This document shows, one piece after another, positions 10,113-43,867 of a DNA stretch of 64,000 bases. Source of the DNA: Stagnimonas aquatica (GTDB lineage: Bacteria; Pseudomonadota; Gammaproteobacteria; Nevskiales; Nevskiaceae). The DNA lies in contig NZ_RJVO01000007.1 in assembly GCF_003730135.1 (NCBI RefSeq), positions 62,001-126,000 of the forward strand, given 5' to 3'. Below the pieces are notes generated by a model. That model was not told the DNA's origin. It saw only the letters and a program-made list of their open reading frames with translations, and ran no database searches. The translations under genes were made by a program, and so were the position numbers. How positions within the stretch are numbered: position 1 is the stretch's first letter; each line of letters begins with the position of its first letter.

Positions 10113-10143
10113 AACCCAGCAGCAGGCGAAGAAAGACAGAGAA

Positions 10144-11995: not shown

Positions 11996-12811
11996 ATGAG
12001 CAACAACCTGGTCTTCATCGTCATGGATAGCTGCCGCTACGACAGCTATGCCCGCGCCAAGCGCTCCAACATGGACGCGATCGGCGTCGGAGAACGACGC
12101 TACTCCTACGCCTCCTGGACCTCGCCCTCGCACTACACCTATCTGATGGGCATGGTGCCGCACCAAAGCCCGCAGGGCGTGTTCGCCAGCGAGGTCTACA
12201 AGAAGGAATTCGCGCAGTGGGTGGACCGGCTCGGCATCGACGATCTGTCGTTCAAGAGCTTCGTGCCGCAGCTGTCGCTGCCCTATGTGCTGCAGCAGCA
12301 GGGCTATCGCACCTGCGCCAAGGTCTCGCTGCCGGTGCTGAATCCGCTCTCGCACCTCAACCGTCACTTCGACGACTACAAGCTGATGGCGAACCACAAC
12401 GACTTCGCCGGGATGATCAAGGAGATCGAGTTCGACGCCGACGAGCCCAGCTTCTACTTCCTCAATCTCGGCGAGACCCACTACCCCTACATGCTCGACC
12501 CCAAGAGCCTGCCGCACATCTCCGGCGTGCACGGAGTGTTCAAGCGCATGGACGACGAGCTGGGCCGCGAGACCAGCGACCGCTTCTTCGACGACGAGCA
12601 GATGCGCGAGCTACACAGCCAGCAGGTGCGCACCGTGGAGCACGTCGACACCGTGCTGGAAGGCCTGATCGAGAAGGCGCCGGTAGGCACCCACTTCATC
12701 ATCACCGCCGACCACGGCGAGTGCTTCGGCGAAGGTGGCTACTTCGGCCATGGACCGATCGTCCACGAGAAGGTGATGGAAGTGCCGTTTCTGGAAGGAC
12801 GCAAGCGCTAG
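11996..12811 (+). CDS. Alkaline-phosphatase-superfamily hydrolase (sulfatase-like fold), soluble
   Basis: 271 residues, short for the superfamily. Metal-site motifs are visible: Asp11 in FIVMDSCRYDSY, the nucleophile region TSPSH (residues 42-46) and ITADHGE (Asp239, His240), followed by GHGP. The nucleophile position has Thr rather than the Cys/Ser of formylglycine sulfatases, which is more usual in phosphoryl-transfer members of the superfamily. There is no signal peptide or membrane helix, so it is probably cytoplasmic. It ends 36 bases before the first synthase gene, with which it is very likely cotranscribed. Substrate unknown; a phosphate, phosphodiester or sulfate ester on the lipid product or a precursor is an inference from context. 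Confidence 0.75.
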   Translation: MSNNLVFIVMDSCRYDSYARAKRSNMDAIGVGERRYSYASWTSPSHYTYLMGMVPHQSPQGVFASEVYKKEFAQWVDRLGIDDLSFKSFVPQLSLPYVLQQQGYRTCAKVSLPVLNPLSHLNRHFDDYKLMANHNDFAGMIKEIEFDADEPSFYFLNLGETHYPYMLDPKSLPHISGVHGVFKRMDDELGRETSDRFFDDEQMRELHSQQVRTVEHVDTVLEGLIEKAPVGTHFIITADHGECFGEGGYFGHGPIVHEKVMEVPFLEGRKR

Positions 12812-12847
12812 CCGCGCCCGCGCGCCCGCTCAGCAGGGAGCCGAGTC

Positions 12848-15800
12848 ATGAGCAAGAGTTTCGAGATCCTGGTGTATTCGCCCGCCGGACTGGGCACGCC
12901 GGATCTGGCAGTCGCCGCCAGCCGCGCCGGCGCGCTGGGCGTGCTGGACCTGGTCGGCACCGCCAGCGAGGACTGCCTGCCCGCGCTGCAAGGCCTGCTG
13001 GAACAAACCGAGGGCGCGCTCGGCCTGCGCCTGGGCGCCGAACAGCAGCCGCTGCTGCCGGAGTTGCTGTCGCGCCTAGGGACCCGCCCCTTGAACCTGA
13101 TCGTCTGCGGCGGCGCTCCGGCGCTGGATGCGCTGCTGCCGGCCATCGCCGGTCGCGCCGATCTGCGCCTCTTGGCCGAGATCACCGCCGCCGAACAGCT
13201 CACCGGGCTGCCCGCCGGCATCGACGGCCTGATCGCGCGCGGCCACGAAGCCGGCGGCTGGGTCGGCGAGGACGGCAGCTTCCTGCTGCTACAGAAGCTG
13301 CACGGCAAGACCGCGTTGCCGGTCTACGCGCTGGGCGGCATCGGCGAGCACAGCGCCGCCGCCTGCCGGGTCGCCGGCGCCGCCGGCGTGGTGCTCGACG
13401 ATCTCGCCCTGCTGCTGCCGGAAAGCCCGCTGCCGGCCACGCTCAAGACCGAACTCGCGCGCCTCAACGGCGCCGAATGCCGCCTCTACGGCGAGCTTGG
13501 CGGCCAGTCGTTCCGCGCCTACGCGCGCCCGGCCTCGCCGGCCATCAAGACGGCCGAAGACTTGCAGCGCCGGCTGGAAGCGGAGTCGCTGCCCGAGGGG
13601 ACGCAGGCCATCGCCCACCTCGCCGGCTGGCAGGACAGCCAGCGCCAACTGCTGCCGCTGGGCCAGGGCATCGGTCTGGCCGCTGCGGCCGCCGCCGCTC
13701 ACGGCAGCCTGGCGGCGCTGATCGCCGCCGTGCAGCGCGCCAGCCTGCGCCAGATCGAGCAGGCCGCCGCGCAGGGCGCGCTCGCCGAGGGCGCGCCGCT
13801 GGCGCTCGCCCACGGCTGCCGCTACCCCATCGTCCAGGGTCCGATGACCCGCGTCTCCGACCATGCCGGTTTCGCCGCCGCCGTGGCCCAAGGCGGCGCG
13901 CTGCCGTTTCTCGCCCTGGCCCTGATGCGTGGCCCACAGCTCGGCAGCCTGCTGGAGGCGACCCGCGAACAGGCCCAGGGCCGCGCCTGGGGCGTGGGCC
14001 TGCTCGGCTTCATCCCCGAGGCGCTGCGCCAGGAGCAGTGCGCGGCGATCTGGGACTGCCCGCCGCCGTTTGCCCTGATCGCCGGCGGCCGCCCCGACCA
14101 GGCCGCCGAATTCGAGTCGCGCGGCATCGCCACCTACATCCACGCACCGGCGCCGGCGCTGCTAACGCTGTATCTCGAACAGGGCGCGCGCCGCTTCGTG
14201 TTCGAGGGTCGCGAATGCGGCGGCCACGTCGGGCCGCTGTCCAGCTTCGCGCTCTGGGGGCAGATGATCGACGTGCTGCTGGCGGAAGTCCCGGCTGGCG
14301 CCGAGAAGGACATCCAGGTCCTGTTCGCCGGCGGCATCCACGACGCGCTGTCCTCGGCGATGGTGGCGGCGATGGCCGCGCCGCTGGTGGCGCGCGGCAT
14401 GCGGATCGGCGTGCTGATGGGCACCGCCTACCTGTTCACCGAGGAGATCGTCGCCAGCGGCGCGGTGGTGCCCGGCTTTCAGGAGCAGGCGCTGCGCTGC
14501 ACGCGCACGGTCAATCTGGAATCCGGCCCCGGCCACGCGACGCGCTGCGTCGCCACCGACTTCGCCCGCGACTTCCAGGACAGCCGCCGGCGCCTGCTGC
14601 GCGAGGGCAAGAGCGTGGAGGAAGTGCGCGACGCGCTGGAAGACTTGAACCTCGGTCGCCTGCGCATCGCCTCCAAGGGCCTGGACCGCAACCGCGACGG
14701 CCAGCTCTCGCCGGTGACCGCCGAGGTCCAACAGCGCGAGGGCATGTACATGATCGGCCAGGTGGCGACCCTGCGGGATCGCAGCCTGAGCATCGCCGAG
14801 CTGCACGCGGCCGTCTCTGGCGAATCGCAGCAGACGCTCGCCGCCGCCATCCCGGCGCGCGCGGCGCGGCCCCAGCCGCAGCCCAGCGACATCGCCATCG
14901 TCGGCATCGGTCTGGTACTGCCGGGCGCCGATGATGCCGAGCAGTACTGGCGCAATCTGCTCGACCAGAAGAGCGTGATCCGCGAGGTGCCGGAGTCGCG
15001 CTGGGACTGGCGCCTGTACTTCGACGAAAACCCCAAGGCGCGCGACAAGATCTACTCGCGCTGGGGCGGCTTTCTCGACGAGATCCGCTTCGACCCGACC
15101 CGCTTCGGCATTCCGCCGAAGTCGATGAAGTCCATCGACCCGGCGCAGATCCTCACCCTGGAGGCCGCCAGCCGCGCGCTCGCCGACGCCGGTCTCGCGC
15201 AGGGCGGCTACGACCGCGAGACCACCTCCATCGTGCTCGGCGCCAGCGGCGGCTCCGGCGATCTCGGCGCCCAGTACGCGCTGCGCGCGGAGCTGCCGCG
15301 CTATGTCGAGAGCCTGACGCCCGAGGCCTGGGACCGGCTGCCGGAATGGACCGAGGAATCCTTCGCCGGCACCCTGCTCAATGTCGCCGCCGGCCGGGTC
15401 GCCAATCGCCTGGACTTCGGCGGCATCAATTGCACGGTCGATGCCGCCTGCGCCTCCTCGCTGGCGGCCATCGCCATGGCGGTGCAGGAACTCGAAACCG
15501 GCAGCAGCTCGCTGGTGCTGGCCGGCGGCTTCGACACCACCCAGTCGGCCTATGCCTATACCGCCTTCGCCAAGACCTCGGCGCTGTCGCCGCAGGGCAA
15601 GGCGCGCACCTTCGACCAGGCCGCCGACGGCATCGTGATCTCCGAGGGCGTGGCGATGGTGGCGCTCAAGCGCCTGGCCGACGCCGAGCGTGACGGCGAC
15701 CGCATCTACGCGGTGATCAAGGCGGTCGCCGGCTCCAGCGACGGCAAGGCCCTGGGTCTGACCGCGCCGCGCAGCGAGGGCCAGGTACGCGCACTCGACC

Positions 15801-18800
15801 GCGCCTACGCCAAGGCCGGCTTCGCGCCGGCGACCCTGGGCCTGGTGGAAGCACACGGCACCGGCACTCCGGTCGGCGATCTCGCCGAGGCGCAGACCAT
15901 CTGCAAGGCGCTGAGCCGCAGCGGCGCCGCCCCGAAGAGCGTGGCGCTGGGCTCGGTGAAGACCCTGCTCGGCCACACCAAGGCCGCCGCCGGCACCGCC
16001 GGTCTGGTCAAGGTGGCGCTGTCGCTCTACCACCGCAGCCTGCCGCCGCACTACGGCGTCGAACAACCCATAGCGCCGCTCGCCGACGCGGCGGCGCCGG
16101 TGTACCTGCTCAAGGAGCCGCGCCCCTGGCTGGCCAGCCCCGCGCATCCGCGCCGGGGCGCCGCCTCCGCCTTTGGTTTCGGTGGCACCAATTTTCATGT
16201 GGTGCTGGAAGAGCATCCGCGCAGCGGTGGTGCCGCTGGCGCCAGCCGCTGGCCGGCAGAGCTGTTCCTGTTCCGCGCCGGGGATGCCGAGGCGCTCGCC
16301 TACGAGCTGAGCCAACTGCAAGCGCAGCTCGGCGCTGACAGCCGCGTGCCACTCGCCGAGCTGGCGCTGAGCCTGGCCCTGCAAGCCGAGGCGCGGGGCC
16401 GGCTGCCGGTGTCGCTGGCCGTCGTCGCCGCCGACCGCGCGGCGCTGGCCCGCGATCTCGGCCTGGTGCTGGGGCATCTGAAGGACGGCAAGCCGCTACC
16501 CGGCAGCGCCCGCCTGCAAGGGGCAACGCCGGCCGAGGCGCCGGCCATCGCCTTCCTGTTCCCGGGCCAGGGCGCGCAGCAGCTCAACATGGGCCGCGAG
16601 GCGGCGCTGTACTTCGAGGAAGTGCGGCAGGCGCTGGAATTCGCCGAGCGCAGCTTGCAGCGCGAACTGCCGCAGGGCCTCGTGCCGCTGATGATGCCGC
16701 CCGCCGCCTTTGACGAGGCCAGCGAGACCGCGCAGGCCCGCGCGCTCACCGACACCCGGGTGGCGCAGCCGGCTATCGGTGCGCTGTCGCTGGGCTATCT
16801 GCGCCTGGCCGAGCGCCTCGGCCTGCGCGCGGTTGCCAGTGCCGGCCACAGCTACGGCGAATACAGCGCGCTGATGGCCGCCGGGGTGATCGCGCCGGAT
16901 GATTTTCTGCGCCTGTCGGCCGCGCGCGGCGCGGCAATGGCGGCCGCCGCCAGCGCCGGCACGCCCGGCGGCATGGCGGCGGTGCAGGCGCGTCGCGAGC
17001 AAGTGGTCGCCCGGCTCGCCGACTACCCCGGCGTGGTGGTGGCCAATCACAACGCCCCCGAGCAGTGCGTGATCTCCGGGCCGAAGCCGGCACTGGACGC
17101 CGCCGTCGCCGCGCTCAACGAACAGGGCCTGCGGGCGATGCCGCTGGCGGTGTCCGGCGCCTTCCACACCGCACTGGTGGCGCCGGCGAAGACCGCGCTG
17201 GCGGCGGCGATCCTGGCCACGCCGTTCCGCGCCGCGCGCTTCCCGGTGTACTCCAACAGCAGCGCGCAGCCCTACCCTTCCGAGCCGGCGGCGATGCAGG
17301 CGCAACTCGACGCGCATCTCCTGTCCAGCGTCGAGTTCGTCGCCGAAATCGAGGCCATGCAGGCGGCCGGCTGCCAGTTGTTCGTGGAGCTGGGGCCGCG
17401 CGGCATCTGCGCCAACATGGCGCGGCAGACCCTGGTCGGTCGCGCTGGCGCGCAGGCCGTCTCGCTGGACGGCAACGGCGGCGGCCTGCGCGGTCTGCTG
17501 CTGGGCCTGGCCGAGGTCTTCGTCGCCGGTGCCGACTGGCGGCCGAGCGCGCTCTACAGCGGTCGCGGCCTGAAGGCGCTGAGCAACGCGCAGCGCGCCG
17601 CACTGGCGCAGCCGCTGCCCAGCCCGGCGCATCTCTGGATGGTCAGCGGCGGCTGCGCGCGGCCGATCCACGACCCGCTGATCCGCACCGGCAGCCAGCC
17701 GGCGCTGACCCTCGCCAGCCGCGAGGCAGCACGCGCGGCGCTGCCGACGGTGGCGCCCGCGTCTGCCGCACCAGCGATCACGCCGCCTGTCAGCGCAGCG
17801 CTGCCAGCCGCGAATGGCACGCTCAGCAGCGAGGCCCTGCTCGCCTATCAGCAGACCATGCGCCAGTTCCTGAGCTTGCAGGAGCGGGTGATGCAGCAGG
17901 CTCTGGGCGCCGGAGTGTCGGCCACCGCGTCACTGCCAGCGCTGCCGGTAGGAGCGGGCCTGCCCGCGACCAGCCGCCTCCAGCCACCGCCGCCAGCCGT
18001 CGAACCCGCGCCCGCGCCGGTCGCGGGCAAGTCCGCCCCTACGCCGGATGCGGCGAGCGTGGTGGCGGCACCGTCGGTGACGGTGGATGCACAGGCGCTG
18101 CTGCTGTCGCTGGTCGCCGAGCGCACCGGCTATCCCCCCGAGATGCTCGGCCTCGACGCCGATCTGGAAGCCGACCTCGGCATCGACTCGATCAAGCGCG
18201 TGGAAATTCTCGGCGCCTTCCGCAAGGCACATGCGGGCGCCGCCAGCCTGCCGATGGAAAAGCTCAGCAAGACCAAGTCGCTGCGCGCGATCCTGGCGGC
18301 GTTGCCAGCGATCTCGGGCGCGCCGGCAGCGCTGAGCACGGCGGTCGCGGGCGAGCCCGCTCCTACGGCGGGTGCGGCGACAGCGCCGATGGCGACGGCG
18401 GATGCGCAGGCGCTGCTGCTGTCGCTGGTCGCCGAGCGCACCGGTTATCCCCCCGAGATGCTCGGCCTGGATGCCGATCTGGAAGCCGACCTTGGCATCG
18501 ACTCGATCAAGCGCGTCGAAATTCTCGGCGCCTTCCGCAAGGCCCATGCGGGGGCCGCCAGCCTGCCGATGGAAAAGCTCAGCAAGACCAAGTCGCTGCG
18601 CGCGATCCTGGCGGCGTTGCCAGCGATCTCGGGCGCGCCGGCAGCGCTGAGCACGGCGGTCGCGGGCGAGCCCGCTCCTAAGGCGGGTGCGGCGACAGCG
18701 CCGATGGCGACGGCGGATGCGCAGGCGCTGCTGCTGTCGCTGGTCGCCGAGCGCACCGGTTATCCCCCCGAGATGCTCGGCCTGGATGCCGATCTGGAAG

Positions 18801-21139: not shown

Positions 21140-21177
21140 GCGGGCGAGCGGCAGGCCAGACACCGCCCCCATCCCAG

Positions 21178-21201
21178 CCCTCCCCCGCTTGCGGGGGAGG
21201 G
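21178..21201. repeat. GC palindrome (CCCTCCCCCGC family) between the two synthase genes
   Basis: A perfect palindrome CCCTCCCCCGC-TT-GCGGGGGAGGG in the 82-base gap between the two synthase genes. The same family occurs at 31495, 32709, 41324 and (degenerate) 41445. Here it could form a hairpin in the message between the two cistrons. Confidence 0.8.
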
Positions 21202-21221
21202 AGTTCGCGGCAGTCGCGGGC

Positions 21222-24200
21222 ATGAGCGCGCGGCTCGACATCGCCATCGTCGGCATGGCCGGCTGCTACCCGCGCGCGCGCGGCATCCGCCAGTACTGGC
21301 AGAACATCCTCGACAAGGTCGATGCGGTGGCCGAGGCCGAGCCGGAATGGGTGGGCCACTACCACCAGGAGGCCGGCGACGCCCAGGCGCAGGCCGAGGA
21401 CCGCATCTACACCACCCGTGGCGGCTTTCTGCGCGATCTCGCACAGGTCGATCCGATGCGCTACGGGGTGACGCCGATGGTCGCCGCCGGCAGCGATCCC
21501 GACCATCTGCTGGCCCTGCACTACGCCGGCGAAGCGCTCGCCGATGCCGGCTATCTGCACCGTGACTTCAACCGCGAGCGCGCCGGCGTGATCCTCGGCC
21601 GTGGCACCTACGGCAACCGCGCGCTGGCCAGCACCATGAGCCGAAACCTGTTCCTCGACCAGGCGATGGCGATGGTGCAGGGCCTGCGACCGGACTTCAG
21701 CGGCGCCGACCTGGCGCGCCTGAAGGACGCCTTCAAATCCCAGTTGCCGCCGTTCCAGGCCGAGCATATCGGCGTGCTCACGCCCAATGTCATCGCCGGC
21801 CTGATCTGCAACCGCTTCAACCTGATGGGGCCGAGCTGCATCGTCGATGCCGCCTGCGCCTCCTCGCTGATCGCGCTGGAACAGGCGATCACCCAGCTCC
21901 GCCACGGCCATTGCGATCTGATGATCACCGGCGGCATCCACGCCCACACGCCGCCGCAGATCTTCATCCAGTTCTGCCGCATCAACGCGCTGGCGCGCGG
22001 TCAGTTGCGACCGTTCCAGGAAGGCGCCGACGGCACCCTGCTCGGCGAGGGCCTGGGCCTGCTGGTGCTCAAGCGCCGCGCCGACGCCGAGCGCGATGGG
22101 GACCGCATCTACGCGCTGATCCAGGGCATCGGCTCGGCCAGCGACGGCCGCGCCAAGGGCCTGCTGGCGCCACGTCTGGAAGGCGAGGTGCTGGCGCTGC
22201 GTCGCGCCTACGAGAGCAGCGGCATCAACCCCGCCAGCCTCGGCTTCATCGAGGCACACGGCACCGGCACCGCGCTGGGCGATGCCACCGAGGTGCAGGC
22301 CCTGTCCGAGGTCTTCGGTGATCGCGGCGCCGGCGCCCACATCGGCATTTCGGCGGTGAAGTCGATGATCGGCCACTGCATGCCCGCCAGCGGCTCGGCG
22401 GCGCTCATCAAGTCTGCGCTGGCCCTGCACCACCGGGTGCTGCCCCCGATGCTCTGCGAGCGGCCGGACCCGGCGCTGAAGCTGGAGCAGACGCCGTTCT
22501 ACATCCTCAACGAGGCGCGGCCCTGGATTCATGGCGGCCCGGAGCCGCGCCGCGCCGGCGTCAATGCCTTCGGCTTCGGCGGTATCAACAGCCATTTGAT
22601 TCTGGAGGAGTACCGCCCCCCACGTAGCGTGCAGGCGCAGGTGCTGCACCGACCCGGCGGCGGCGAGCTGCTGCTGGTCGCCGCAGACTCGGCGGCGGCG
22701 CTGCGCGAACGCATCGCGATGCTGCGCCTGCATCTGGCCGCGCCGGACGCCGAGCTGGCCGCCATCGCCCAGGCCAGTGCCGCACGCGCCCAGGGCAGCC
22801 ATCGCCTGGCGCTGGTCGCCGTCGACAGCGCCGAGGCGCTGCGCAAGCTCGATAGCGCGCTGGAAAAACTCGGCGACGGCAGCCAGCCGTTCAAGACCCG
22901 CAACGGCATCCATTACGGGCTCGGCGCGGCGCCGGGCAAGCTCTGCTTCCTGTTCCCCGGCGAGGGCTCGCAGTACCCGGGCATGCTCGCCGAGGCCTGC
23001 ACGCAGTGGCCGGTATTGCGCGAGTGGTTCGACATCATCGAGGCCGGGGCGGTGGAGCGCGGCGCGCCCTCGCGGGCGCAGGCCTTGTTCCCGCCGCCCA
23101 GCGTGCTGAGCGAGGCCGCACGCCAGGCGCTGGAAGCGCAGCTCTACGAGGGCGACAGCGCCGCCGAGAGCGTGTTCGCCGCCAGCCTCGGACTGCAATC
23201 CTTCTACGACGACCTAGGCCTGGTGCCGCAGGCCATGCTCGGGCATTCCACCGGCGAGAACACCGCGCTCTCGGCCTGGTGCGACAGCCACCGCCACAAC
23301 CGCGCGCAGGTGGTCACCGCGATCCGCGAGGTCAACGCCCGCTACCGCGCGCTGGAGGCCGAGGGCCGCATCGCCCAGGGCACGCTGCTCACCGTCGGCG
23401 CGCTGGATGCCGAGAGCCGCGCCGCGCTGCTCGCCGACCTGGGCGGGATGGTGGTGGCGATGGACAACTGCCCCAATCAGCTGGTGCTGTTCGGCAGCGC
23501 CGAGCAGGCCGAGGCGATCCGCGTGCGGCTGTCGCCGCAGGGCGCGATCTGCGCCGCCCTGCCCTTTGGCCGCGCCTACCACACACCGCTGTTCGCGCCG
23601 ATGGCCGAGGCGGTGCGCGCCTACTACCCGAGCCTGCAATGGCAGCCGCGTGCCGGCATCAGCCTCTACAGCGCCTGTAGCGTCGGTGAATTCCCGCGCA
23701 CGCCCGAGGGCATCGTCGCACTCACCGCCGAGCAATGGCAGCGGCCGGTGCGCTTCACCGAGACCCTGCACCGGCTCTACGAGGACGGCTACCGGGTGTT
23801 TCTGGAGGTCGGCCCCAGCGCCAATCTCACCGCCTTCGTCGAAGACACGCTGCGCGGTCGGCCCGGCCTGCTGGCACTCGCCAGCGACAGCCGCCGCAAA
23901 TCCGGCTGCCTGCAATTGCAGCAGACGCTGGCGCAATTGTTCGCGGCCGGCTGCGCCTACGACGGCGCCGCGCTGTTCGCGCAGCGCGCGCTTCCCGAAG
24001 TCGATCTGGCCGCGCCACCGCCGGCGCAGAAAAATACCGGCATGCAGCTCAAGCTGCTGATGCCGGAGCTGAAGCTGCCGGAAGAATTCCGCCGGCCGCT
24101 GCCGACCACGGCCGCGACGCCGGATGCGCAGGCAGAGCTGGCGCCCAGTCAGGAAGACGCCCGCGACGCCGCGCTGCGCATGCACTTCTCGCTGATGCAG

Positions 24201-26090
24201 GAGTTTCTCGACTCGCAAGCCCGGGTGCTGGGTCTCGCCGGGGTGCTGCCAGCGACGGCAGTCCCGCGCGAGCAGCCCGCCGTTCCGCCGGCACCGTCGC
24301 CGATGCCGATGCCGATGCCGGCGGCGGTCACCGCCGATGGCAGCCGCTATCCCCTGCTCGGCGAGATCCGTCTGCGCGAACGCGAGCGGCTGCAAGCCGA
24401 GCGCCTGCTCGATCTCGCCAGCGATGTGTTCCTCAACGACCACGCCATCGGCACCGCGCCGACGCCGCGCGACCCCGGCCTGCGGCCACTGCCGGTGCTG
24501 CCCTTCACCTTCAGCATGGAGCTGATCGCCGAGGCCGCCGCCGCACTCTGCGAGGGCGAGGGCCTGAAGCTGATCGGCATCGACCAGGCGCGCGGCAGCC
24601 GCTGGCTGGCGCTGGATTCCGGCCGCCTGCGGCTGCGCATCCAGGCCGAGCGCCTGCCCGGTCGCGCCGGCGAGCCCGGCGGCCCGCAGCGCATCGCCTG
24701 CCGCGTCCATGCCCCCGACGAGGGCAATGCGCCCGGCGGCCTGCTGGTGTTCGAGGGCGAGGTGCTGCTCGCCGCGCAGTACCCGTCGCCACCGATTCTG
24801 GCCGCCAACTCGCGACCGCTACAGCCGCCGCGTCTGCACACGCCGGAGGCGATCTACCGTCACGGCATGTTCCACGGCCCGCGCCTGCAAGGCTGCACGC
24901 GCATCGCCGGCTGGGACGCCGAGGGCATGGACGCTGAGCTGCGCGCACTGCCGGTGCACGACTATTTCCGCGACCGGCCGACACCCGCCTTCCAGTTCGA
25001 CGCCGCCCTGCTCGACGCCGCCGGCCAGCTCGCCGGCTTCTGGCTGCGCGAGAAGTACACCGAGCAGGTGCTGAACTGCTTCCCCTACCGGGTGCGCAGC
25101 CTGCGCCTCTACGGTCCACCGCCGGCGGCCGGCCAGAGCCTGCTGTGCCAGGGGCTGATCCGCCTGGACGGCGAGGCCCAGCAACTGGAAGCGCGCTGGG
25201 AGATCGCAGACCGCGAGGGGCAGCTGCGGATGCGCGCCGAGGGCTGGGAGGACCGCGTGTTCGCGGTGCCGGCGCGCCTGCACGCCTTCCGCCAGAACCC
25301 GGCCGCCGCGCCCTTGAGCGAGCCGCTGCTGCGCGAGCGCCTGCCGCCGGAGCTGTGCATCCGCCGCCTGGCGCCGCTGGAGGAAGGTCTACTCGACGAG
25401 GGCGGCGCAATCTGGAAGCGGGTCACCGCCCACCAGGTGCTGAGCGCCGCCGAACGCGGCCGCTGGTATGCGCTGCCGGCGCAGGGCCCGCGCCGCGAGG
25501 AATGGCTGATGGGCCGGCTCTCCGCCAAGGACGCAGTGCGCGACTGGGTACGCCTGCGTCACGGCCTGGAACTCGCGCCCGCCGACATCGAGATCGCCAG
25601 TTTGGACAGCGGCCGCCCGGTGGTGCGCTGCGCCGCCCTGCAAGGCCGGCTGCCGCCGGCGATCTCGCTGGCGCACAGCCGGCGCTGGGCCTGCGCGGTG
25701 GCCAGCGATCCCGGTGTCAGCCTGGGCCTGGACTATCAGCGCATCGAACCGCTGCGCACCGAAGACCTGATCCACGGCGCCTTCGCCGCCAGCGAGCAGC
25801 ACTGGCTGAGCGCGCCCGCCGGCGGCCCCGAGCGCGCGCGTCAGGCGGTCGCGCTCTGGTGCGCCAAGGAAGCCGCCGCCAAGGCCGCCGGCACCGGTCT
25901 TCAAGGCCGTCCGCAGGACTGGCGGGTGGTCGCCGCCCAGCTCGACCGCCGTGGCGGCAGTCCGACCGTGGCGCGGGTGCGCCAGGGCGAGCGCGACTAC
26001 GACGTGGCGCTGCACTTCGAAGGCGACGAGGCGGTGCTGGCCTTGTGCGTGGCGACCGACGCGGTGCCGGCGGTGGCGGTGTCGGATTGA
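21222..26090 (+). CDS. Pfa-like multienzyme: KS-AT-DH-phosphopantetheinyl transferase
   Basis: 1622 residues. KS covers 1-465 with the complete triad Cys212 (VDAACASS), His346 and His385. AT covers about 570-880 (Ser676 in GHSTGE, His787 in AYHTPLF). A helical linker near 980-1005 is like those of Pfa proteins. The PS-DH-type double-hotdog dehydratase covers about 1035-1340, with His1074 in NDHAIG and the DxxxQ motif Asp1265/Gln1269. An Sfp-type 4'-phosphopantetheinyl transferase covers about 1425-1622 (Asp1504 in GLDYQ; WCAKE at 1546-1550). ATG 21222 was chosen because the KS begins right after it (LDIAIVGMAGCYP). There is no ACP here, so it must work on the ACPs of the first protein, and its PPTase probably activates them. 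The fused PPTase plus DH replaces the separate PfaE and FabA-like DH pair of classical PUFA clusters. Confidence 0.9.
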   Translation: MSARLDIAIVGMAGCYPRARGIRQYWQNILDKVDAVAEAEPEWVGHYHQEAGDAQAQAEDRIYTTRGGFLRDLAQVDPMRYGVTPMVAAGSDPDHLLALHYAGEALADAGYLHRDFNRERAGVILGRGTYGNRALASTMSRNLFLDQAMAMVQGLRPDFSGADLARLKDAFKSQLPPFQAEHIGVLTPNVIAGLICNRFNLMGPSCIVDAACASSLIALEQAITQLRHGHCDLMITGGIHAHTPPQIFIQFCRINALARGQLRPFQEGADGTLLGEGLGLLVLKRRADAERDGDRIYALIQGIGSASDGRAKGLLAPRLEGEVLALRRAYESSGINPASLGFIEAHGTGTALGDATEVQALSEVFGDRGAGAHIGISAVKSMIGHCMPASGSAALIKSALALHHRVLPPMLCERPDPALKLEQTPFYILNEARPWIHGGPEPRRAGVNAFGFGGINSHLILEEYRPPRSVQAQVLHRPGGGELLLVAADSAAALRERIAMLRLHLAAPDAELAAIAQASAARAQGSHRLALVAVDSAEALRKLDSALEKLGDGSQPFKTRNGIHYGLGAAPGKLCFLFPGEGSQYPGMLAEACTQWPVLREWFDIIEAGAVERGAPSRAQALFPPPSVLSEAARQALEAQLYEGDSAAESVFAASLGLQSFYDDLGLVPQAMLGHSTGENTALSAWCDSHRHNRAQVVTAIREVNARYRALEAEGRIAQGTLLTVGALDAESRAALLADLGGMVVAMDNCPNQLVLFGSAEQAEAIRVRLSPQGAICAALPFGRAYHTPLFAPMAEAVRAYYPSLQWQPRAGISLYSACSVGEFPRTPEGIVALTAEQWQRPVRFTETLHRLYEDGYRVFLEVGPSANLTAFVEDTLRGRPGLLALASDSRRKSGCLQLQQTLAQLFAAGCAYDGAALFAQRALPEVDLAAPPPAQKNTGMQLKLLMPELKLPEEFRRPLPTTAATPDAQAELAPSQEDARDAALRMHFSLMQEFLDSQARVLGLAGVLPATAVPREQPAVPPAPSPMPMPMPAAVTADGSRYPLLGEIRLRERERLQAERLLDLASDVFLNDHAIGTAPTPRDPGLRPLPVLPFTFSMELIAEAAAALCEGEGLKLIGIDQARGSRWLALDSGRLRLRIQAERLPGRAGEPGGPQRIACRVHAPDEGNAPGGLLVFEGEVLLAAQYPSPPILAANSRPLQPPRLHTPEAIYRHGMFHGPRLQGCTRIAGWDAEGMDAELRALPVHDYFRDRPTPAFQFDAALLDAAGQLAGFWLREKYTEQVLNCFPYRVRSLRLYGPPPAAGQSLLCQGLIRLDGEAQQLEARWEIADREGQLRMRAEGWEDRVFAVPARLHAFRQNPAAAPLSEPLLRERLPPELCIRRLAPLEEGLLDEGGAIWKRVTAHQVLSAAERGRWYALPAQGPRREEWLMGRLSAKDAVRDWVRLRHGLELAPADIEIASLDSGRPVVRCAALQGRLPPAISLAHSRRWACAVASDPGVSLGLDYQRIEPLRTEDLIHGAFAASEQHWLSAPAGGPERARQAVALWCAKEAAAKAAGTGLQGRPQDWRVVAAQLDRRGGSPTVARVRQGERDYDVALHFEGDEAVLALCVATDAVPAVAVSD

Positions 26091-26151
26091 GCATGGGTAG
26101 AGCCATGGTGGGTTTGCGGGGGGCTCGAGCGGCTCGGCTGGGGCTGGGGCT

Positions 26152-26794
26152 GCGGTTCGCGCGTTCGCGCTCTTTTGGCTTTGCAGGGTTTGAGGTCTTT
26201 TTTTCGCCTATTGGCGACTCACTTTTCTTTGCTTGTGCAAAGAAAAGTAAGCAAAAGAAAGCACACCCCTGCGTAGCGCCCGCTGCGGGGGCAAGCCTGC
26301 GATGCTCGGCCCAAAGGGGCCGCTCGCGAACTCGGCGCCCTATAGGCGCCTCAAACAGGCGCTCGCTGTTATCCCCCTTTGGTCCTCCGCTTCTCGGCGC
26401 TACGAAGGGGACCGGAACGTCCACAGCACGGCGGTCTCCGCCCGCCGCAACATCTACAGCAGGCGCGCGCTTCGCTCGCGCGAGGTCGGCGAAGCCGACG
26501 AGCCGGGGTGCTGTTGATGTGGCTTTTGACGTTCCCTCCCCCTTCGTAGCGCCGAGAAGCGCAGGGCTCCGGGGGTATGGAAGCCGGCGCATGTCTGAGG
26601 CGCCTATAGGGCGCCGAGTTCGCCGGCGTCCCCCGGAGACCGAGCATCGCAGGGTACCCCGCAGGGGCGCTACGCAGGGGCCTGCTTTCTTTTGCTTACT
26701 TTTCTTTGCAGGAGCAAAGAAAAGTGAGTCGCCAATAGGCGAAAAAAGGACCTCAAACAGCACACACAAAGCAGAGCGCGAACGCGCGAACCAC
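26152..26794. repeat. Large palindromic module, copy B (about 640 bp)
   Basis: Second copy of the module at 9439-10112, with the same outer arms, inner arms and central segment but more substitutions inside. Its outer right end reads GCGAACGCGCGAACCAC as in copy A. It occupies most of the 813-base gap between the second synthase gene and the gene at 26904. With copy A it brackets argD, the first phosphatase-like gene and both synthase genes. No protein gene is supported in this gap. Confidence 0.85.
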
Positions 26795-26903
26795 ACAGCC
26801 AAGCAGAGCAGCACGAAGGCGCGACCCACAAACAAAACAGCACGAAAGCACCGCCCCCAAGCGACAGCTTTCCCAAAACCCCCTTCAGCCAAGTGACCAC
26901 AAC

Positions 26904-28505
26904 ATGACCACCACCCTCTTCATCGGCCTCGACGGCTGCACCTACACCGTCCTCGACCAGATGACCCGCGAGCTACCGGGCGAAGGCCTGACCATGCCGT
27001 TCATGAAGTCGCTGATGGAACGCGGCGTGCGCGCCAAGCTGCGCTCCACGCCGAATCCGCTGACGCCGCCGGCCTGGACCTCGATCATGACCGGCAAGGG
27101 CCCAGGCGAGCACGGCGTGTTCGACTTCATCCGCGCCGAGGACCACGGCGGCGAGGTCTACTGGACGCTCTACGACGCCCGCGACATCGACAGCGAAATC
27201 ATCTGGGCCATCCTCTCGCGCAAGGGCAAGTCGGTGGCGGCGCTCAACTTCCCGCTCACCGCGCCGGCGCCGGAAGACCTGAAGGGCTCGATCGTGCCCG
27301 GCTTCATCCCGGCCAAGCACCTGCGCCGCAACACGCATCCGCGCGAGCTGTTCGAGCGCATCAAGCAGCAGATCCCGGGCTTCGACCCCAAGGAACTCGC
27401 CTGGGATTTCGACAAGGAGAAGCAGGCGATGGAATCGCTCTCCGCCGACGAGACCGCCAAGTGGGTGCGCTATCACCTGCCGCGCGAGGAGCAGTGGTTC
27501 AAGGTCGCCGAGTTCATCCTCAAGAACGACCGGCCCGACGTGATGGCGGTGATGTTCGACGGCACCGACAAGATCCAGCACCAGGCCTGGCCCTGGCTGG
27601 ACGCGGCCCTGCTGAAGGCCGAGCCGACGGAGCACGACCGCGAGATGCGCGCGGTCTGCCTGGAATATTTCCGCAACCTCGACGGCTACATCGAGAAGCT
27701 GGTGACGCTGGCCGGGCCGGAGGCGCAGGTGTTCTTCGCCAGCGACCACGGCTTCACCGCCTCGACCTTCGTGCTGCGCATCAACGCCTACCTGGCCGAG
27801 AAGGGCTATCTGAAGTGGGCGGAGAACGACGGTAGCGAGCAGGCGATCCGCCGCGAGGCCAGCGATTTCGCCAACCTCGACTGGGCGCAGACCACCGCCT
27901 ACTGCCGCACGCCGTCCTCCAACGGCATCCACATCCGCGTCGCCGCCAAGCCCGGCGATCCGGGCATCCAGCCGAAGGACTACGAGAGTTTCCGCGAACG
28001 CCTGATCGCCGACCTGCTGGCCCTGCGCGATCCCGACAGTGGCGAGCCGGTGATCGTCGACGTGCTCAAGCGCGAGGACTGGTTCCCGGGCCAGCACATG
28101 AACCGCGCCTGCGACCTCACCCTGGTGCTGCGCGATCACGGCTTCGTCTCGATCCGCAACCTCACGCCGGCGGTGGCGCAGCGCCCGCAGGCCATCGGCA
28201 CCCACCACCCGGACGGCATCTTCATGGCGGTCGGCCCCGGCATTCCGGCCGCCGGCATGGTCGGGCTGCGGCAGATCGTCGATGTCGCGCCCACCCTGCT
28301 CTATAGCGCCGGCCTGCCGGTGCCGGCCGACTTCGAGGGCGCCGCTGCTGAGAGCTTCTTCACCGCCGAGCAGCTCACCGCCCGACCGCCGAAGAAGGGC
28401 GCGCGCACCCGCGTCACCGAGCGCCGACAGCTCGGGCAGGAGATGGATGCCGGCGAGAAGAAGCAGATCATCGAGCAGCTGCAGATGCTCGGCTACATGG
28501 AATGA
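26904..28505 (+). CDS. Alkaline-phosphatase-family phosphodiesterase/pyrophosphatase-like enzyme
   Basis: 533 residues of the type I phosphodiesterase/nucleotide-pyrophosphatase branch. Metal and nucleophile motifs: Asp10 in FIGLDGCTY, Thr59 in PPAWTSIMTGKGPGEHG, DGTDKIQHQ in the middle, Asp281-His282 in FASDHGF, and His434-His435 in GTHHPDG. No signal peptide or membrane helix is visible. It likely hydrolyses or transfers a phosphate ester in the cytoplasm. It starts a tight plus-strand group with the acyltransferase (14-base gap) and ACP (22-base gap), placing it in the lipid locus. The substrate is unknown; it is the second member of this superfamily in the locus. Confidence 0.82.
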   Translation: MTTTLFIGLDGCTYTVLDQMTRELPGEGLTMPFMKSLMERGVRAKLRSTPNPLTPPAWTSIMTGKGPGEHGVFDFIRAEDHGGEVYWTLYDARDIDSEIIWAILSRKGKSVAALNFPLTAPAPEDLKGSIVPGFIPAKHLRRNTHPRELFERIKQQIPGFDPKELAWDFDKEKQAMESLSADETAKWVRYHLPREEQWFKVAEFILKNDRPDVMAVMFDGTDKIQHQAWPWLDAALLKAEPTEHDREMRAVCLEYFRNLDGYIEKLVTLAGPEAQVFFASDHGFTASTFVLRINAYLAEKGYLKWAENDGSEQAIRREASDFANLDWAQTTAYCRTPSSNGIHIRVAAKPGDPGIQPKDYESFRERLIADLLALRDPDSGEPVIVDVLKREDWFPGQHMNRACDLTLVLRDHGFVSIRNLTPAVAQRPQAIGTHHPDGIFMAVGPGIPAAGMVGLRQIVDVAPTLLYSAGLPVPADFEGAAAESFFTAEQLTARPPKKGARTRVTERRQLGQEMDAGEKKQIIEQLQMLGYME

Positions 28506-28519
28506 CGGCAGTTCTGTAG

Positions 28520-29302
28520 ATGAACACCGCGACCACCCAACTCAGCGCCACAGAACTGGTCGAACACGGCCTCTATGTCGGCGAGGGTCGTGGCTTGCTG
28601 ACGCCGCTGGTCTGCGAGCGGCCGGTGTGGCTGTTCGACCCGCGACGGATCAAGGACTGCGCCTTCGGCGCCTACGCCTACGTCAACGGCCAGTACACCA
28701 GCAGCCTCTACGACTGCGCAGTCGGCCGCTATACCTCGATTGCCGAGGCGGTAGTGGCCGGCGCCTACGAGCATCCGACCGAATGGCTCAGCTCGCATCC
28801 CTTCCTGTTCGCCGAGCCGCAGCAGTTCAAGGCCTTTCTGCGCCAGCCGGAATTCGCAAGGCTGGCGCCGGAGCCGCCGACGCAGAAGCAATGGCCTACG
28901 CATCAGACCACGATGATCGGCCACGATGTCTGGATCGGCGCCGGTGCCTTCATCAAGCGTGGCGTGCGCATCGGCGATGGCGCGGTGGTGGCTGCGCACG
29001 CGGTGGTGACCCGCGACGTGCCGCCCTACAGCATCGTCGCCGGCCAGCCGGCCAAGATCCTGCGCGGCCGCTTCGACAGCCGCAGCATCGAGCGCCTGCA
29101 GCGCCTGCAGTGGTGGCGCTACGACCTGGCGCCGCACAAGGCGACCATCGACTTCCGCCACATCCAGGGCGCGCTCGACGCCCTGGAGCAGCTGCTCGCC
29201 GAGGGCCGGCTGCTGCCCTACCAGAGCCAGACCAGCCGCATCACTCCGCAGCCGGACGGCCACTACGCGCTGACGGTGGTGGAGCCCCTGTATTCCTTCT
29301 GA
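28520..29302 (+). CDS. Left-handed beta-helix (hexapeptide) acyltransferase, CatB/Vat type
   Basis: 260 residues. Hexapeptide repeats run from about residue 50 to 175 (CAFGAYAYVNGQYTSSLYD, IGHDVWIGAGAFIKRGVRIG, VVAAHAVVTRDVPPYSIVAGQPAKILRGRF). The insert with SSHPFLF and the His before the last coils match xenobiotic/chloramphenicol-type O-acetyltransferases. It uses acetyl-CoA or an acyl-ACP donor; given the adjacent free-standing ACP, an acyl-ACP donor is possible but not shown. It sits between the phosphodiesterase-like gene and the ACP in a probable operon. Confidence 0.82.
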   Translation: MNTATTQLSATELVEHGLYVGEGRGLLTPLVCERPVWLFDPRRIKDCAFGAYAYVNGQYTSSLYDCAVGRYTSIAEAVVAGAYEHPTEWLSSHPFLFAEPQQFKAFLRQPEFARLAPEPPTQKQWPTHQTTMIGHDVWIGAGAFIKRGVRIGDGAVVAAHAVVTRDVPPYSIVAGQPAKILRGRFDSRSIERLQRLQWWRYDLAPHKATIDFRHIQGALDALEQLLAEGRLLPYQSQTSRITPQPDGHYALTVVEPLYSF

Positions 29303-29324
29303 CGATTGTTCACGGACAGCACCC

Positions 29325-29612
29325 ATGCCGCTCAGCAGCGACGACTACACCCAGAAGCTCATCACGCTCCTGGAAGACTTCACCCAGGACTGGGACCACG
29401 ACTACCGTGGCGCCATGCAGCGCGACACCCGGCTGTTCGCCGACCTCGCCTTCGAGTCCATCGACATCATCCAGCTGGTGGTGGCGATCCAGGAGGAGGT
29501 ACTGCGCGCCAAGGCGCCGTTCGAGAAACTCCTGATGCGCGAGGGCCGCTACGTGGACGACCTCTCGATTGGCCAGATCGCGGATTTTCTGGCGGTGCAG
29601 GCGGCGGGCTGA
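29325..29612 (+). CDS. Free-standing acyl carrier protein
   Basis: 95 residues, acidic, four-helix ACP. The phosphopantetheine site is Ser45 in LAFESIDIIQLVVAIQE, the usual xxSxD(I/L) pattern. An insertion of charged residues precedes it (DWDHDYRGAMQRD). It probably carries an acyl group for the hexapeptide acyltransferase upstream or for a CoA-to-ACP transfer step. It would be activated by a PPTase, perhaps the one fused to the second synthase. It is the last plus-strand gene before a convergent methyltransferase; a repeat pair lies in between. Confidence 0.88.
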   Translation: MPLSSDDYTQKLITLLEDFTQDWDHDYRGAMQRDTRLFADLAFESIDIIQLVVAIQEEVLRAKAPFEKLLMREGRYVDDLSIGQIADFLAVQAAG

Positions 29613-30534: not shown

Positions 30535-30629
30535 GCTCGACTCCCTGTCGTTGTTCGCCGTCTCTCCTCGGCTAGGGCGCAGTGTAGGCGGCAGCGCGGA
30601 ACGCGGCGAGTCCACCCGGCGCTTCGGCC

Positions 30630-31460
30630 ATGAGTCTTCCGCGACTCGCGCACCAACAGCTCGGCAGTGGACCCGAGGTGATCCTGGTTCATGGTCTGGG
30701 CGCCAACCGCGCCTTCTGGTTCGGCAATCTGGCGCTGAACCTCGCCGCCGACCACCGCGTCACGCTCTACGACCTGCGCGGCCACGGCTATAGCGAGCGC
30801 CCGGCCAGCGGCTACAGCGTCACCGACCACGCCGCCGACCTGCTGGCGCTGATGGACGAGCTGGCGATCCCGCAGGCGGCGCTGATCGGCCACAGCCTGG
30901 GCGGCGCGGTGGCGCTGGAACTGGCGGTGCAGGCCCCGCAGCGGGTGCGCCAGCTCGCCCTGCTCGACAGCCGCATCCAACGTCTGCAAGCCAGCATGTA
31001 TCTGCACGAAGTCGAACCGCTCTCGGCCTACGAGCAGGATGTCGCCCGTCGCGCCGGCGGCGACTGGCGGCAGGAGCCGGAAGTGGGCCTGCGCTTCATC
31101 GAGGCTGCGGCGCGGCTGATGCTGGCGAATCCCGGCGAAGGCCTGCGCGACGACTACACGCCGTTCGGCGAGGGCCGTGGCGCGCGGCGCGCGGCGCGGC
31201 AGTTCGTCGAACTGCTGGAGCGGACCACGTTGCGCCAGGACTTTCCCCAGCCCGGCGCCGAGCCGGCGCGTTACGGCGCGGTCGAAATGCCGACGCTGCT
31301 GCTCTACGCCCAGCCGAGCCGGGCGCTGAAATCCGCCGCCGCCCTGGCCGCCGCGCTGCCGCAGGCACGACTACAGACGCTCGCTGGCGTCGGGCACTTC
31401 TTCCCCATCACCCATCCGCAAGCCACCGCCGAGGCGGTGCGCGCGCTGCTGGCGCGCTAG
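30630..31460 (+). CDS. Alpha/beta-hydrolase
   Basis: 276 residues. Oxyanion region VHGLGANRAFW (from residue 20), nucleophile elbow GHSLGG with Ser89, C-terminal catalytic His in GVGHFFPI; the acid is probably the Asp/Glu after strand 6. No signal peptide is visible, so it is cytoplasmic. It could act as an editing or releasing thioesterase for the synthase, which has no thioesterase domain of its own; this is suggested only by position and by the absence of a releasing domain. It is divergent from the methyltransferase. Confidence 0.82.
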   Translation: MSLPRLAHQQLGSGPEVILVHGLGANRAFWFGNLALNLAADHRVTLYDLRGHGYSERPASGYSVTDHAADLLALMDELAIPQAALIGHSLGGAVALELAVQAPQRVRQLALLDSRIQRLQASMYLHEVEPLSAYEQDVARRAGGDWRQEPEVGLRFIEAAARLMLANPGEGLRDDYTPFGEGRGARRAARQFVELLERTTLRQDFPQPGAEPARYGAVEMPTLLLYAQPSRALKSAAALAAALPQARLQTLAGVGHFFPITHPQATAEAVRALLAR

Positions 31461-33947: not shown

Positions 33948-33960
33948 GGAGAAACCCACC

Positions 33961-34857
33961 ATGACCCGTCTACGGCTGCACAGCCTGCTGCTACTCGGCG
34001 CCCTGCTCGCCAGCGCCTGTTTCGACCGTGGCGCGCTGCCCAGCGCCGGCGCCGCCGAGACCACCGCCGGAACCGTCCTCGAACGCGAACTGGGCGAGCG
34101 CAGCTACCGCCTGGTCCTGCCGCCGGGCAAGGCCAGCCAGCCGCGCCCGCTGATCGTCGCACTGCACGGCGGCTGGGGCAGCGGCAAGAACATGCAGGAC
34201 ATCAGCGGCCTCGACGACCCCGCGCTCGCCGCCGGCTTCGTGGTCGCCTATCCGGACGGGGTGATGAAGGCCTGGAACGCCGGCAGCTGCTGCGCCACGC
34301 CGATGAAGAAGAACATCGACGATGTCGGCTTCCTGAAGGCGGTGGTGGACGACATCGCCCAGCGCGACGGCATCGACCGCAAGCGCGTCTACGGCACCGG
34401 CTTTTCCAACGGCGCGATGATGCTCTACCGCGTCGCCTGCGAGGCGCCGGGCCTGTTCAAGGCCATCGCGCCGGTCTCCGGCGGGCCGATGTTCGAGGGC
34501 TGCAAATCGCCGCAGCCGATCTCCGCCTACCTGATCCAGGGCCGCGCCGATCCGCGCATCCCCTTCGACGGCGGCGAGTTCGAGGGCAACTACCGGCCGG
34601 GGCTGCTGAGCATCGTCAGCCAGCTCGGCCAGCGCGCCGGCTGCGGCAAGGAGCAGAAGCAGACCTGGCAGGACGGCGATACCTCCTGCGCCACGGTGCA
34701 GGGCTGCCCGGGCGGCATCGAGCTGAGCTGGTGCGGCCTCGGCGGCGTCGGTCACCAGTGGGCCGGCGGCCGCACCCTGCTGCCCGGCCTGCTCGGCCAG
34801 AACACCAGTCGCTTCAATGCCTCGCGGCAGATCGTGCTGTTCTTCCAGAGGCACTAA
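33961..34857 (+). CDS. Exported PHB-depolymerase-family esterase (lipoprotein)
   Basis: 298 residues, with an AGGAGA ribosome site before ATG 33961. The N-terminal signal with a lipobox-like LLASAC (Cys at about 20) suggests a lipoprotein; otherwise it is simply exported. Alpha/beta-hydrolase of the LpqC/feruloyl-esterase-like branch (COG3509): oxyanion region VALHGGWGSGKNM, nucleophile Ser149 in GFSNGAMM, catalytic His in GVGHQWAGG near the end. It would cleave esters outside the inner membrane. It is 13 bases after the CoA-transferase and probably cotranscribed with it and the next dehydrogenase. Confidence 0.85.
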   Translation: MTRLRLHSLLLLGALLASACFDRGALPSAGAAETTAGTVLERELGERSYRLVLPPGKASQPRPLIVALHGGWGSGKNMQDISGLDDPALAAGFVVAYPDGVMKAWNAGSCCATPMKKNIDDVGFLKAVVDDIAQRDGIDRKRVYGTGFSNGAMMLYRVACEAPGLFKAIAPVSGGPMFEGCKSPQPISAYLIQGRADPRIPFDGGEFEGNYRPGLLSIVSQLGQRAGCGKEQKQTWQDGDTSCATVQGCPGGIELSWCGLGGVGHQWAGGRTLLPGLLGQNTSRFNASRQIVLFFQRH

Positions 34858-43845: not shown

Positions 43846-43867
43846 ACCGGAGTCGGCGGCGGGATGC

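Follow-up and report, generated by a model that had tools for sequence, protein, structure and literature searches.

A secondary-lipid synthase with fused enoyl reductase in Stagnimonas aquatica and its conserved candidate genes for head-group addition and export

For 14 of the 20 types of secondary-lipid synthases no product is known, according to the excerpted text of PMC3098273. Among the closest described systems, ArsA-ArsD of Azotobacter supply the long acyl chains from which a type III polyketide synthase (PKS) forms phenolic lipids (PMC4824345 and PMC3098273 in excerpt). In Ottowia thiooxydans, a PfaD-PfaA fusion and a PfaBC homologue without the pair of ketosynthase (KS) and chain-length factor (CLF) have already been published, as an excerpt of PMC13291983 describes. 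Here we analyse a related locus of Stagnimonas aquatica with two multienzymes, FAS1 and FAS2, and the neighbouring genes AP1, AP2, LbH, ACP and ABH. It lies in a stretch of 64,000 nucleotides, in the following called the window, that covers positions 62001-126000 of contig G000:C7 (NZ_RJVO01000007.1) in a genome of 3.80 Mb on 15 contigs. A first-pass annotation had read the locus as similar to a polyunsaturated fatty acid (PUFA) synthase with an unusual domain partition and a product other than eicosapentaenoic or docosahexaenoic acid (EPA/DHA), possibly a phosphorylated or esterified novel lipid.

Our analysis suggests, with about even confidence, that the locus encodes a two-protein type I synthase for a long, mostly saturated chain which is released, provided with an anionic head group and exported as an envelope lipid. 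The predicted synthesis of the chain by this synthase and the activation of its acyl carrier protein (ACP) units in cis are well supported by intact catalytic motifs. Chain length, release, head group and export would follow from the neighbouring genes. Gene order, together with co-occurrence in distant groups, links the synthase to a constant set of candidates for head-group chemistry and export.

Domain architecture and phylogenetic place of FAS1 and FAS2

The domain content claimed in the first-pass annotation agrees with Pfam, which gives two NMO stretches, a KS, an acyltransferase (AT), three PP-binding stretches and a ketoreductase (KR) for FAS1, and KS, AT, PS-DH and ACPS for FAS2. As also claimed, KS1 and KS2 both keep Cys-His-His (DAACASS, EAHGTGT and the second His), so that no CLF, that is, no KS without the Cys, is present within these two PUFA-synthase-like proteins. 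The triad is kept in 132 of the 134 KS of a large tree, the exceptions being the second KS of locus L084 (Ser) and the second KS of L160 (Glu). The GHSxGE motif is intact in both AT, and so is the serine motif in all three ACP units of FAS1. These units are spaced by 105 residues, of which 81 to 93 are common to any two of them; this looks like a recent duplication.

The proposal of two flavin enoyl reductase (ER)-like domains at the N-terminus of FAS1 holds for the number of domains, as two NMO stretches are present, but the GGH motif of the first one is without its His, while that of the second one is intact. The same pattern was found in relatives, with the first motif lacking His in 65/65 frames and the second carrying GGH in 65/65, counted only in frames with two recognisable motifs, some of them from the same genome. 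Without its motif His, the first ER is probably structural. The second ER matches the NCBIfam model of FabK only weakly (60.4 bits, cut-off 453.1) and gave no match to TIGR02814 (PfaD) at E<=0.01. In the whole genome, no protein exceeded the PfaD cut-off; the best score of 26.6 bits against a cut-off of 449.25 belongs to a second, paralogous locus. FAS1 itself scores above the NCBIfam cut-off for PfaA (TIGR02813, 1156.5 vs 1010.1 bits). Neither FAS1 nor FAS2 shows a FabA-like dehydratase/isomerase at E<=0.01 in its full Pfam table, where PS-DH is the only dehydratase (DH).

The C-terminal tail of FAS1, first taken for a hotdog-like domain, is a truncated PS-DH. Relatives such as L010 and L019 have the whole PS-DH with a "DPYL-DH" stretch, which is gone in the window and in L008. 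With this tail decayed, the PS-DH of FAS2 would serve the whole complex. In the phosphopantetheinyl transferase (PPTase) of FAS2, the motifs P1a (by a loose pattern that gave SGRP and other matches) and P1b' (ISLAH) are present, whereas P0 and P1b, (F/S)NxSH, are absent; in the excerpted text of PMC3098273, this combination is the PPTase motif class of secondary-lipid synthase Types M-T. The start of FAS2 is best taken as the ATG at 21222 rather than the TTG at 21189, judging from the point at which homology to KS sets in. Three genomes (G038, G040 and G047) seemed to carry an in-frame TGA within FAS2, but in each of these stretches the codon is the regular stop at the end of the gene.

Contrary to the first-pass annotation, the domain partition is a common one and represents the plan of a large clade. 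A pattern-based scan with the ER region found 534 relatives, of which the best 80 were kept for counting. The nearest named relatives among these 80 are metagenome-assembled genomes of Nevskiaceae (94%) and Stagnimonas (85%, both in the ER region). ER and KS lie in one frame in 77 of the best 80 relatives, from several phyla; the three misses are L034, L054 (a piece without KS) and L080 (a divergent motif, for which Pfam shows the fusion). A KS of the FAS2 clade is nearby in 37/80, and many of the other loci are short pieces. A fused PfaD-PfaA is also published from Ottowia. The genome of S. aquatica itself contains the paralogous locus of the same plan (L006, G000:C1:818000-837000), with 41% identity in FAS1 and 38% in FAS2. 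This second locus carries its own ACP, an alpha/beta hydrolase, a 407-aa protein without Pfam match and an ABC-2 membrane protein. In the trees, it falls together with clusters from myxobacteria and planctomycetes, and KS of its type are also found in L071, L060, L078 and L083.

In a tree calculated with IQ-TREE from 46 rows, all 24 sampled ER-fused KS1 rows lie on one side of a branch with support 90/97, among them rows from Azotobacter, myxobacteria, planctomycetes and cyanobacteria. The 12 PfaA/HglE-type KS rows form a separate, neighbouring clade (100/99) that excludes the KS1 of the window; "PfaA" labels in the tree stand for TIGR02813 scores and "HglE" labels were deduced from frame size only. 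KS2 rows form one group in a larger FastTree tree (40 rows, 0.999) and are weakly supported in the 46-row tree (78/44). Since the labels included no PfaC KS and no certified CLFs, they bear on KS1 rather than on KS2. The large tree comprises 134 of 203 KS stretches, leaving out second copies of the same locus and stretches below 440 model positions, from which the FabF outgroup was exempt. A set of 13 rows from Bosea, cyanobacteria, Haliea and Nevskiaceae (100/98) includes all sampled rows with AP1 in the locus or the genome, together with L018, whose genome is without AP1. Lamprocystis, with AP2 and without AP1, adjoins this set (88/86). The KS phylogeny suggested in the first-pass annotation unites KS1 of the window with the ArsA-type KS of Azotobacter in one clade, but the architectures are not identical, as the second Azotobacter protein in L080 is without KS and AT and type III PKS genes accompany it. 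The synthase is best explained, from its KS and domain order, as a member of an ER-fused, ArsA-like branch of the secondary-lipid synthases.

The gene unit around the synthase

Within the family of the window, 58 genomes were searched with thresholds of E<=1e-60 for AP1, E<=1e-40 for AP2 and E<=1e-100 for FAS2. AP1 was found in 46, AP2 in 45 and FAS2 in 48 of them, although two of the 48 (G054 and G056) match FAS2 only at the level of the paralogue. Presence of AP1 and AP2 agrees in 57/58 genomes; the exception is G021 with AP1 only, where FAS2 ends at the contig edge. AP1 was not found in any of 27 additional genomes from the rest of the order. The gene lies just upstream of FAS1 in 20/20 upstream family stretches, which had been picked by the place of FAS1. 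In 20 downstream family stretches, picked for AP2 so that AP2 is present in all by construction, ACP was found in 20, LbH in 19 and ABH in 18. The order AP2-LbH-ACP is kept in 16 of these, with LbH displaced in L099, L105 and L106 and absent in L100, and FAS2 stands directly before AP2 in family genomes by coordinates. Thus, AP1, FAS1, FAS2, AP2, LbH, ACP and ABH form a unit in the family. The locus and genome sets overlap (L007 in G052, L008 in G055 and L010 in G025).

Outside the family we used 17 genomes, hand-picked from the 80 loci and several of them because AP1 had been seen there: AP2 was found in 13 at E<=1e-10 (12 strong matches and a weak one in a planctomycete), AP1 in 12, and both as strong matches in 11, not always close together. 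Among 12 stretches around AP2 in other groups, an ACP match was found in 11 and an alpha/beta hydrolase in 9; the KS-to-PPTase part of FAS2 adjoins in 8 and the PPTase end in a ninth. The adjacency FAS2-ACP-AP2 occurs in cyanobacteria, Haliea and Lamprocystis. LbH is nearly confined to the family of the window, with none in the 12 stretches and one weak match (41%, 45 bits) in L061. The neighbourhood is common to gammaproteobacteria, an alphaproteobacterium and cyanobacteria. In some genomes AP1 lies far from the other genes or even on a separate contig, which would point to a functional link beyond mere proximity. In a relative of Synechococcus (L138, 11132-14579), genes for a TauD-type dioxygenase, an esterase and a condensation-domain protein stand between AP2 and the hydrolase, a hint that the head group differs in this organism. 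Directly upstream of AP1 or FAS1, the loci L016, L018, L032, L034, L046 and L075 encode similar proteins with a length of roughly 340-390 aa; the one of L034 consists of TPR repeats.

The two phosphatase-superfamily genes and the hexapeptide acyltransferase gene named in the first-pass annotation were recovered by Pfam. In AP1, the residues D11, W41-T42-x-P44-S45-H46, E160, H162, D239, H240 and H252 are kept in 16/16 aligned rows; the 15 relatives among them, cyanobacterial ones included, are 63-97% identical to AP1 of the window. A structural model (predicted template modelling score 0.79, mean predicted local distance difference test score (pLDDT) 73.8) matches the folds of the phosphoethanolamine transferase EptC (Z 15.5, root-mean-square deviation 3.3 over 210 residues, 15% identity) and of a sulfatase (Z 14.8, 4.1 over 225 residues, 18% identity), which are tied. 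The nucleophile of formylglycine sulfatases has to be Cys or Ser, within the motif C/S-x-P-S-R. AP1 has Thr42 at this position and the sequence Thr42-x-Pro44-Ser45-His46 in 16/16 rows; this Thr led us to reject a formylglycine sulfatase and speaks for phosphoryl chemistry. In AP2, D10, D222, H226, D281, H282 and H434 are kept in 36/36 aligned rows and T54 in 97%. AP1 contains no transmembrane-like segment and no 19-residue window above 1.6 in hydropathy, AP2 no such segment and no hydrophobic N-terminus; both enzymes are therefore probably soluble.

The gene read as a free ACP had no Pfam match at E<=0.01. A weak NCBIfam ACP match (22.5 bits, cut-off 65) and weak ACP matches to solved structures, ranked below two unrelated repeat proteins, favour this assignment, and Ser45 is kept in 31/31 rows compared. 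The first-pass statement that no release domain is present passes over the linked ABH gene, which was found in 18/20 family stretches and in 9/12 stretches of other groups and makes that statement doubtful. The methyltransferase gene between ACP and ABH (Table 1) was also seen in 4/20 downstream family stretches (L087, L088, L093 and L095).

Further downstream, a sulfotransferase gene was found in 12 of the 20 downstream family stretches, and HlyD-type and TolC-type genes in 11 each. Beside them lies U484. Of the 46 family genomes with AP1, 45 also carry U484, and the 12 without AP1 all lack it, so that both genes agree in 57/58 genomes. U484 is at most 25 kb away from AP2 in 32 of 44 family genomes compared, a count that omits G006 (AP2 present, U484 absent). 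Outside the family, it lies near cluster genes in stretches of 8/12 genomes. Matches from Nevskiaceae to Bosea and cyanobacteria are mostly 43-98% identical, with a few weaker ones at 22-38%. U484 has no Pfam match at E<=1e-5, no NCBIfam match at E<=0.01, no PDB sequence match at E<=1 and no transmembrane-like segment. In G099, a genome of the order outside the family, a PfaA-like frame lies 4-5 kb from U484. The sulfotransferase was matched in few of the loci examined outside the family (L015, L032, L038, L075/L136, L086 and L128). The HlyD-type protein has membrane segments in its N-terminal half; this half weakly matches the intramembrane metalloprotease model NF041824 (53.3 bits, cut-off 300).

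Table 1. Features of the locus and its surroundings in window coordinates
Feature	Position	Strand	Match
AP1, small alkaline-phosphatase-superfamily enzyme (Sulfatase PF00884)	11996..12811	+	Pfam 34.5 bits
FAS1, 2763 aa: degenerate ER, ER (NMO/FabK-like), KS, AT, three tandem ACPs, KR, decayed PS-DH tail	12848..21139	+	
FAS2, 1622 aa: KS, AT, PS-DH, PPTase	21222..26090	+	Pfam (ACPS = PPTase)
Nested inverted-repeat element, dispersed genomic repeat, FAS2-AP2 interval	26151..26795	no strand	
AP2, alkaline-phosphatase-superfamily enzyme (Phosphodiest PF01663)	26904..28505	+	Pfam 149.6 bits
LbH, hexapeptide O-acyltransferase (CatB/Vat-like)	28520..29302	+	Pfam match
Putative stand-alone ACP, Ser45	29325..29612	+	weak ACP matches
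Methyltransferase gene, between ACP and ABH	29710-30615	-	
ABH, alpha/beta hydrolase, candidate release thioesterase or acyltransferase	30630..31460	+	Pfam 110.5 bits
PHB-depolymerase-type esterase, partly conserved neighbour	33934..34857	+	matched in 11/40 family stretches
Sulfotransferase (Sulfotransfer_3)	38924..39850	-	Pfam 34.9 bits, cut-off 27
U484, 484 aa, conserved, no known family	39847..41301	-	
HlyD-type membrane-fusion protein	41524..43896	-	HlyD_3 66 bits; TIGR01730 115.7 bits, cut-off 94.9
TolC-family outer-membrane channel	43868..45277	-	OEP 158.1 bits; TIGR01844 226.9 bits, cut-off 225.15

The repeat element between FAS2 and AP2 has two pairs of arms, 26151-26281/26665-26795 (88%) and 26289-26427/26522-26660 (78%). 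The nested inverted repeat recurs near 9443-10117 of the window and in 31 BLAST pieces genome-wide, several of them at contig ends. The three congeneric genomes with the locus have 817-907 bp between FAS2 and AP2, and the distance does not exceed 200 bp in 37 of 41 others compared; for G018, the value of 772 bp stems from an incomplete FAS2 match. The insertion may be restricted to the genus, and the element probably stands outside the function of the locus. A search of plasmids with FAS2 gave no record with a single place covering 80%.

Proposed pathway and rival explanations

We propose that FAS1 and FAS2 would iterate to a long acyl chain, mostly saturated because a FabA-like isomerase for cis double bonds is missing from both proteins. 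The finished chain might pass to the free ACP, from which ABH, in this family possibly together with the hexapeptide acyltransferase, could transfer it to a polar acceptor. AP1 and AP2, as members of the alkaline-phosphatase superfamily with a Thr nucleophile, may transfer or trim a phospho head group, and the linked sulfotransferase may add sulfate. The HlyD-type and TolC-type proteins could export the product, which would then be a long-chain envelope lipid with an anionic head and a trait of most sampled family members rather than a sporadic antibiotic. The modified lipid product expected in the first-pass annotation is plausible, and its doubt about EPA/DHA was justified by the lack of PfaD above cut-off, FabA-like DH and CLF. 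More tentatively, and with more doubt than confidence, we speculate about an undescribed, phylum-crossing envelope-lipid pathway in which an ER-fused synthase makes a very long chain, two soluble AP enzymes install or remodel the phospho head, a sulfotransferase may sulfate it and HlyD/TolC proteins export it together with U484. The top-ranked literature matches, at the level of abstracts and without figures and supplements, contain no account of AP1, AP2 or U484 beside such a synthase, which is weak evidence for novelty.

Several observations weigh against the envelope-lipid explanation. The co-occurrence counts come from related genomes and do not represent independent events, and the pairing of AP1 and AP2 is broken by G021 and G064 (AP1 only) and by G068 (AP2 only). 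The identity of AP1 to its fold matches reaches only 11-19%, neither AP1 nor AP2 matches a solved structure by sequence at E<=0.01, and the single-sequence model of AP2 is poor (mean pLDDT 39.5), so that phospho transfer is only one possibility. The assignment of the free ACP depends on weak profile scores, and a dispersed repeat now parts FAS2 from AP2 in the window. The genes for the sulfotransferase, U484, HlyD and TolC lie on the other strand, some 7-14 kb past the ABH gene, and 8 or 9 of the 20 downstream family stretches gave no match to them. U484 is missing from G006, which has AP1, and occurs without AP1 in 6 of the 27 genomes from the rest of the order.

Alternatively, the locus could be an accessory secondary-metabolite cluster for an antibiotic or a signalling lipid that is common in the family by chance. 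The 12 family genomes without AP1 fit such a cluster, as do the related clusters scattered over phyla, which suggest transfer. We nevertheless regard it as unlikely, since presence of AP1 in 46/58 family genomes and 63-97% identity over the 15 aligned relatives point to a stable, constrained role. Less probable still is an action of AP1 and AP2 on the carrier, for example by cutting the phosphodiester between ACP and phosphopantetheine or by clearing stalled acyl groups, with no head group made. AP2 belongs to a phosphodiesterase family and its gene neighbours that of the free ACP in cyanobacteria and Haliea; against this, one housekeeping task would need two distinct AP enzymes. The known ACP hydrolases are members of a different superfamily, which also counts against it.

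In the CurM/Ols synthases, sulfotransferase and alpha/beta hydrolase domains form a terminal alkene from a beta-hydroxyacyl chain, and genes for both activities are linked in the window. A corresponding terminal alkene as product is nevertheless very improbable here, because the CurM/Ols domains are fused to the chain, whereas the sulfotransferase of the window is grouped with the export genes and has few matches outside the family. A true EPA/DHA-type PUFA synthase with rearranged genes, as the TIGR02813 score of FAS1 and the tandem ACPs would allow, is hardly credible and was rejected, since PfaD above cut-off is absent from the whole genome, FAS1 and FAS2 have neither FabA-like DH nor CLF, and KS1 stands outside the clade of the high-scoring PfaA rows. 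Supply of long acyl starters to a type III PKS for phenolic lipids, as by ArsA-ArsD, would agree with the shared ER-ER-KS-AT-ACP-KR and PS-DH-PPTase modules and the shared KS1 clade, but we give it scarcely any credence and rejected alkylresorcinol supply, as the genome has no type III PKS (PF00195, 0 matches at E<=0.001) and the second protein of the Azotobacter locus is without KS or AT, with two type III PKS genes lying between the synthase genes there. The swf synthases of sponge symbionts were likewise rejected as a counterpart, as they follow a different plan with one protein KS-AT-DH-ER-KR-ACP accompanied by swfB and swfC (PMC3908369, in excerpt).

The association of the synthase with this gene set provides concrete gene and enzyme candidates for an orphan class of synthases, whose product could be found by comparing the lipids of congeneric strains with and without the locus.

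Comparison with known systems

The modelled fold of AP1 matches the phosphoethanolamine transferases EptA/EptC/MCR-1 and the S1 sulfatases to the same degree; AP1 is a protein of 271 aa without a transmembrane-like segment. With the PfaA-E PUFA synthases of Types A and B, the locus has in common the core of KS, AT, tandem ACPs and KR with a TIGR02813 score above cut-off, but here ER and PPTase are fused, PfaD above cut-off, FabA-like DH and CLF are missing, and KS1 falls into a separate clade. Heterocyst glycolipid synthases (HglE, Type F) resemble it as long-chain type I synthases. The heterocyst glycolipid is exported through a membrane-fusion/TolC-type system. In contrast to KS1 of the window, the candidate HglE KS, named by frame size only, sit in the PfaA-type clade. 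Type F also has hglC with KS-CLF-AT, according to the excerpt of PMC3098273, whereas FAS1 and FAS2 are without CLF. The cluster of Ottowia thiooxydans is similar in its fused PfaD-PfaA and its PfaBC homologue without KS-CLF, but it is a hybrid joined to PKS and nonribosomal peptide synthetase genes (PMC13291983, in excerpt), and none of these were found among the window genes around FAS1 and FAS2 that were run against Pfam.

Locus L080 of Azotobacter beijerinckii encodes two synthase proteins that we take to be ArsA and ArsD by name and whose domains were annotated from Pfam. This system (Type P, Shulse and Allen 2011) shares with the window ER-ER-KS-AT-ACP-KR on one chain, PS-DH and PPTase on a second chain and the same KS1 clade. 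It differs in that its second protein consists of PS-DH and ACPS only, while FAS2 has KS and AT in addition, in that it has one ACP stretch instead of three, and in its type III PKS genes, of which there are none here. The L080 genome contains neither AP1 (E<=1e-30) nor AP2 (E<=1e-10).

Two further groups were compared by their published descriptions. Type O fits in its taxa (Gloeobacter and two alphaproteobacteria) and belongs to the PPTase motif class M-T in the excerpted text of PMC3098273; among basal cyanobacteria, only Aphanocapsa lilacina (L047, L131) was examined here. Neither Type O nor the cyanobacterial cluster family CF-3 of Calteau 2014 (PMC4247773, in excerpt) has a known product. 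The cluster in the window may be Type O or CF-3.

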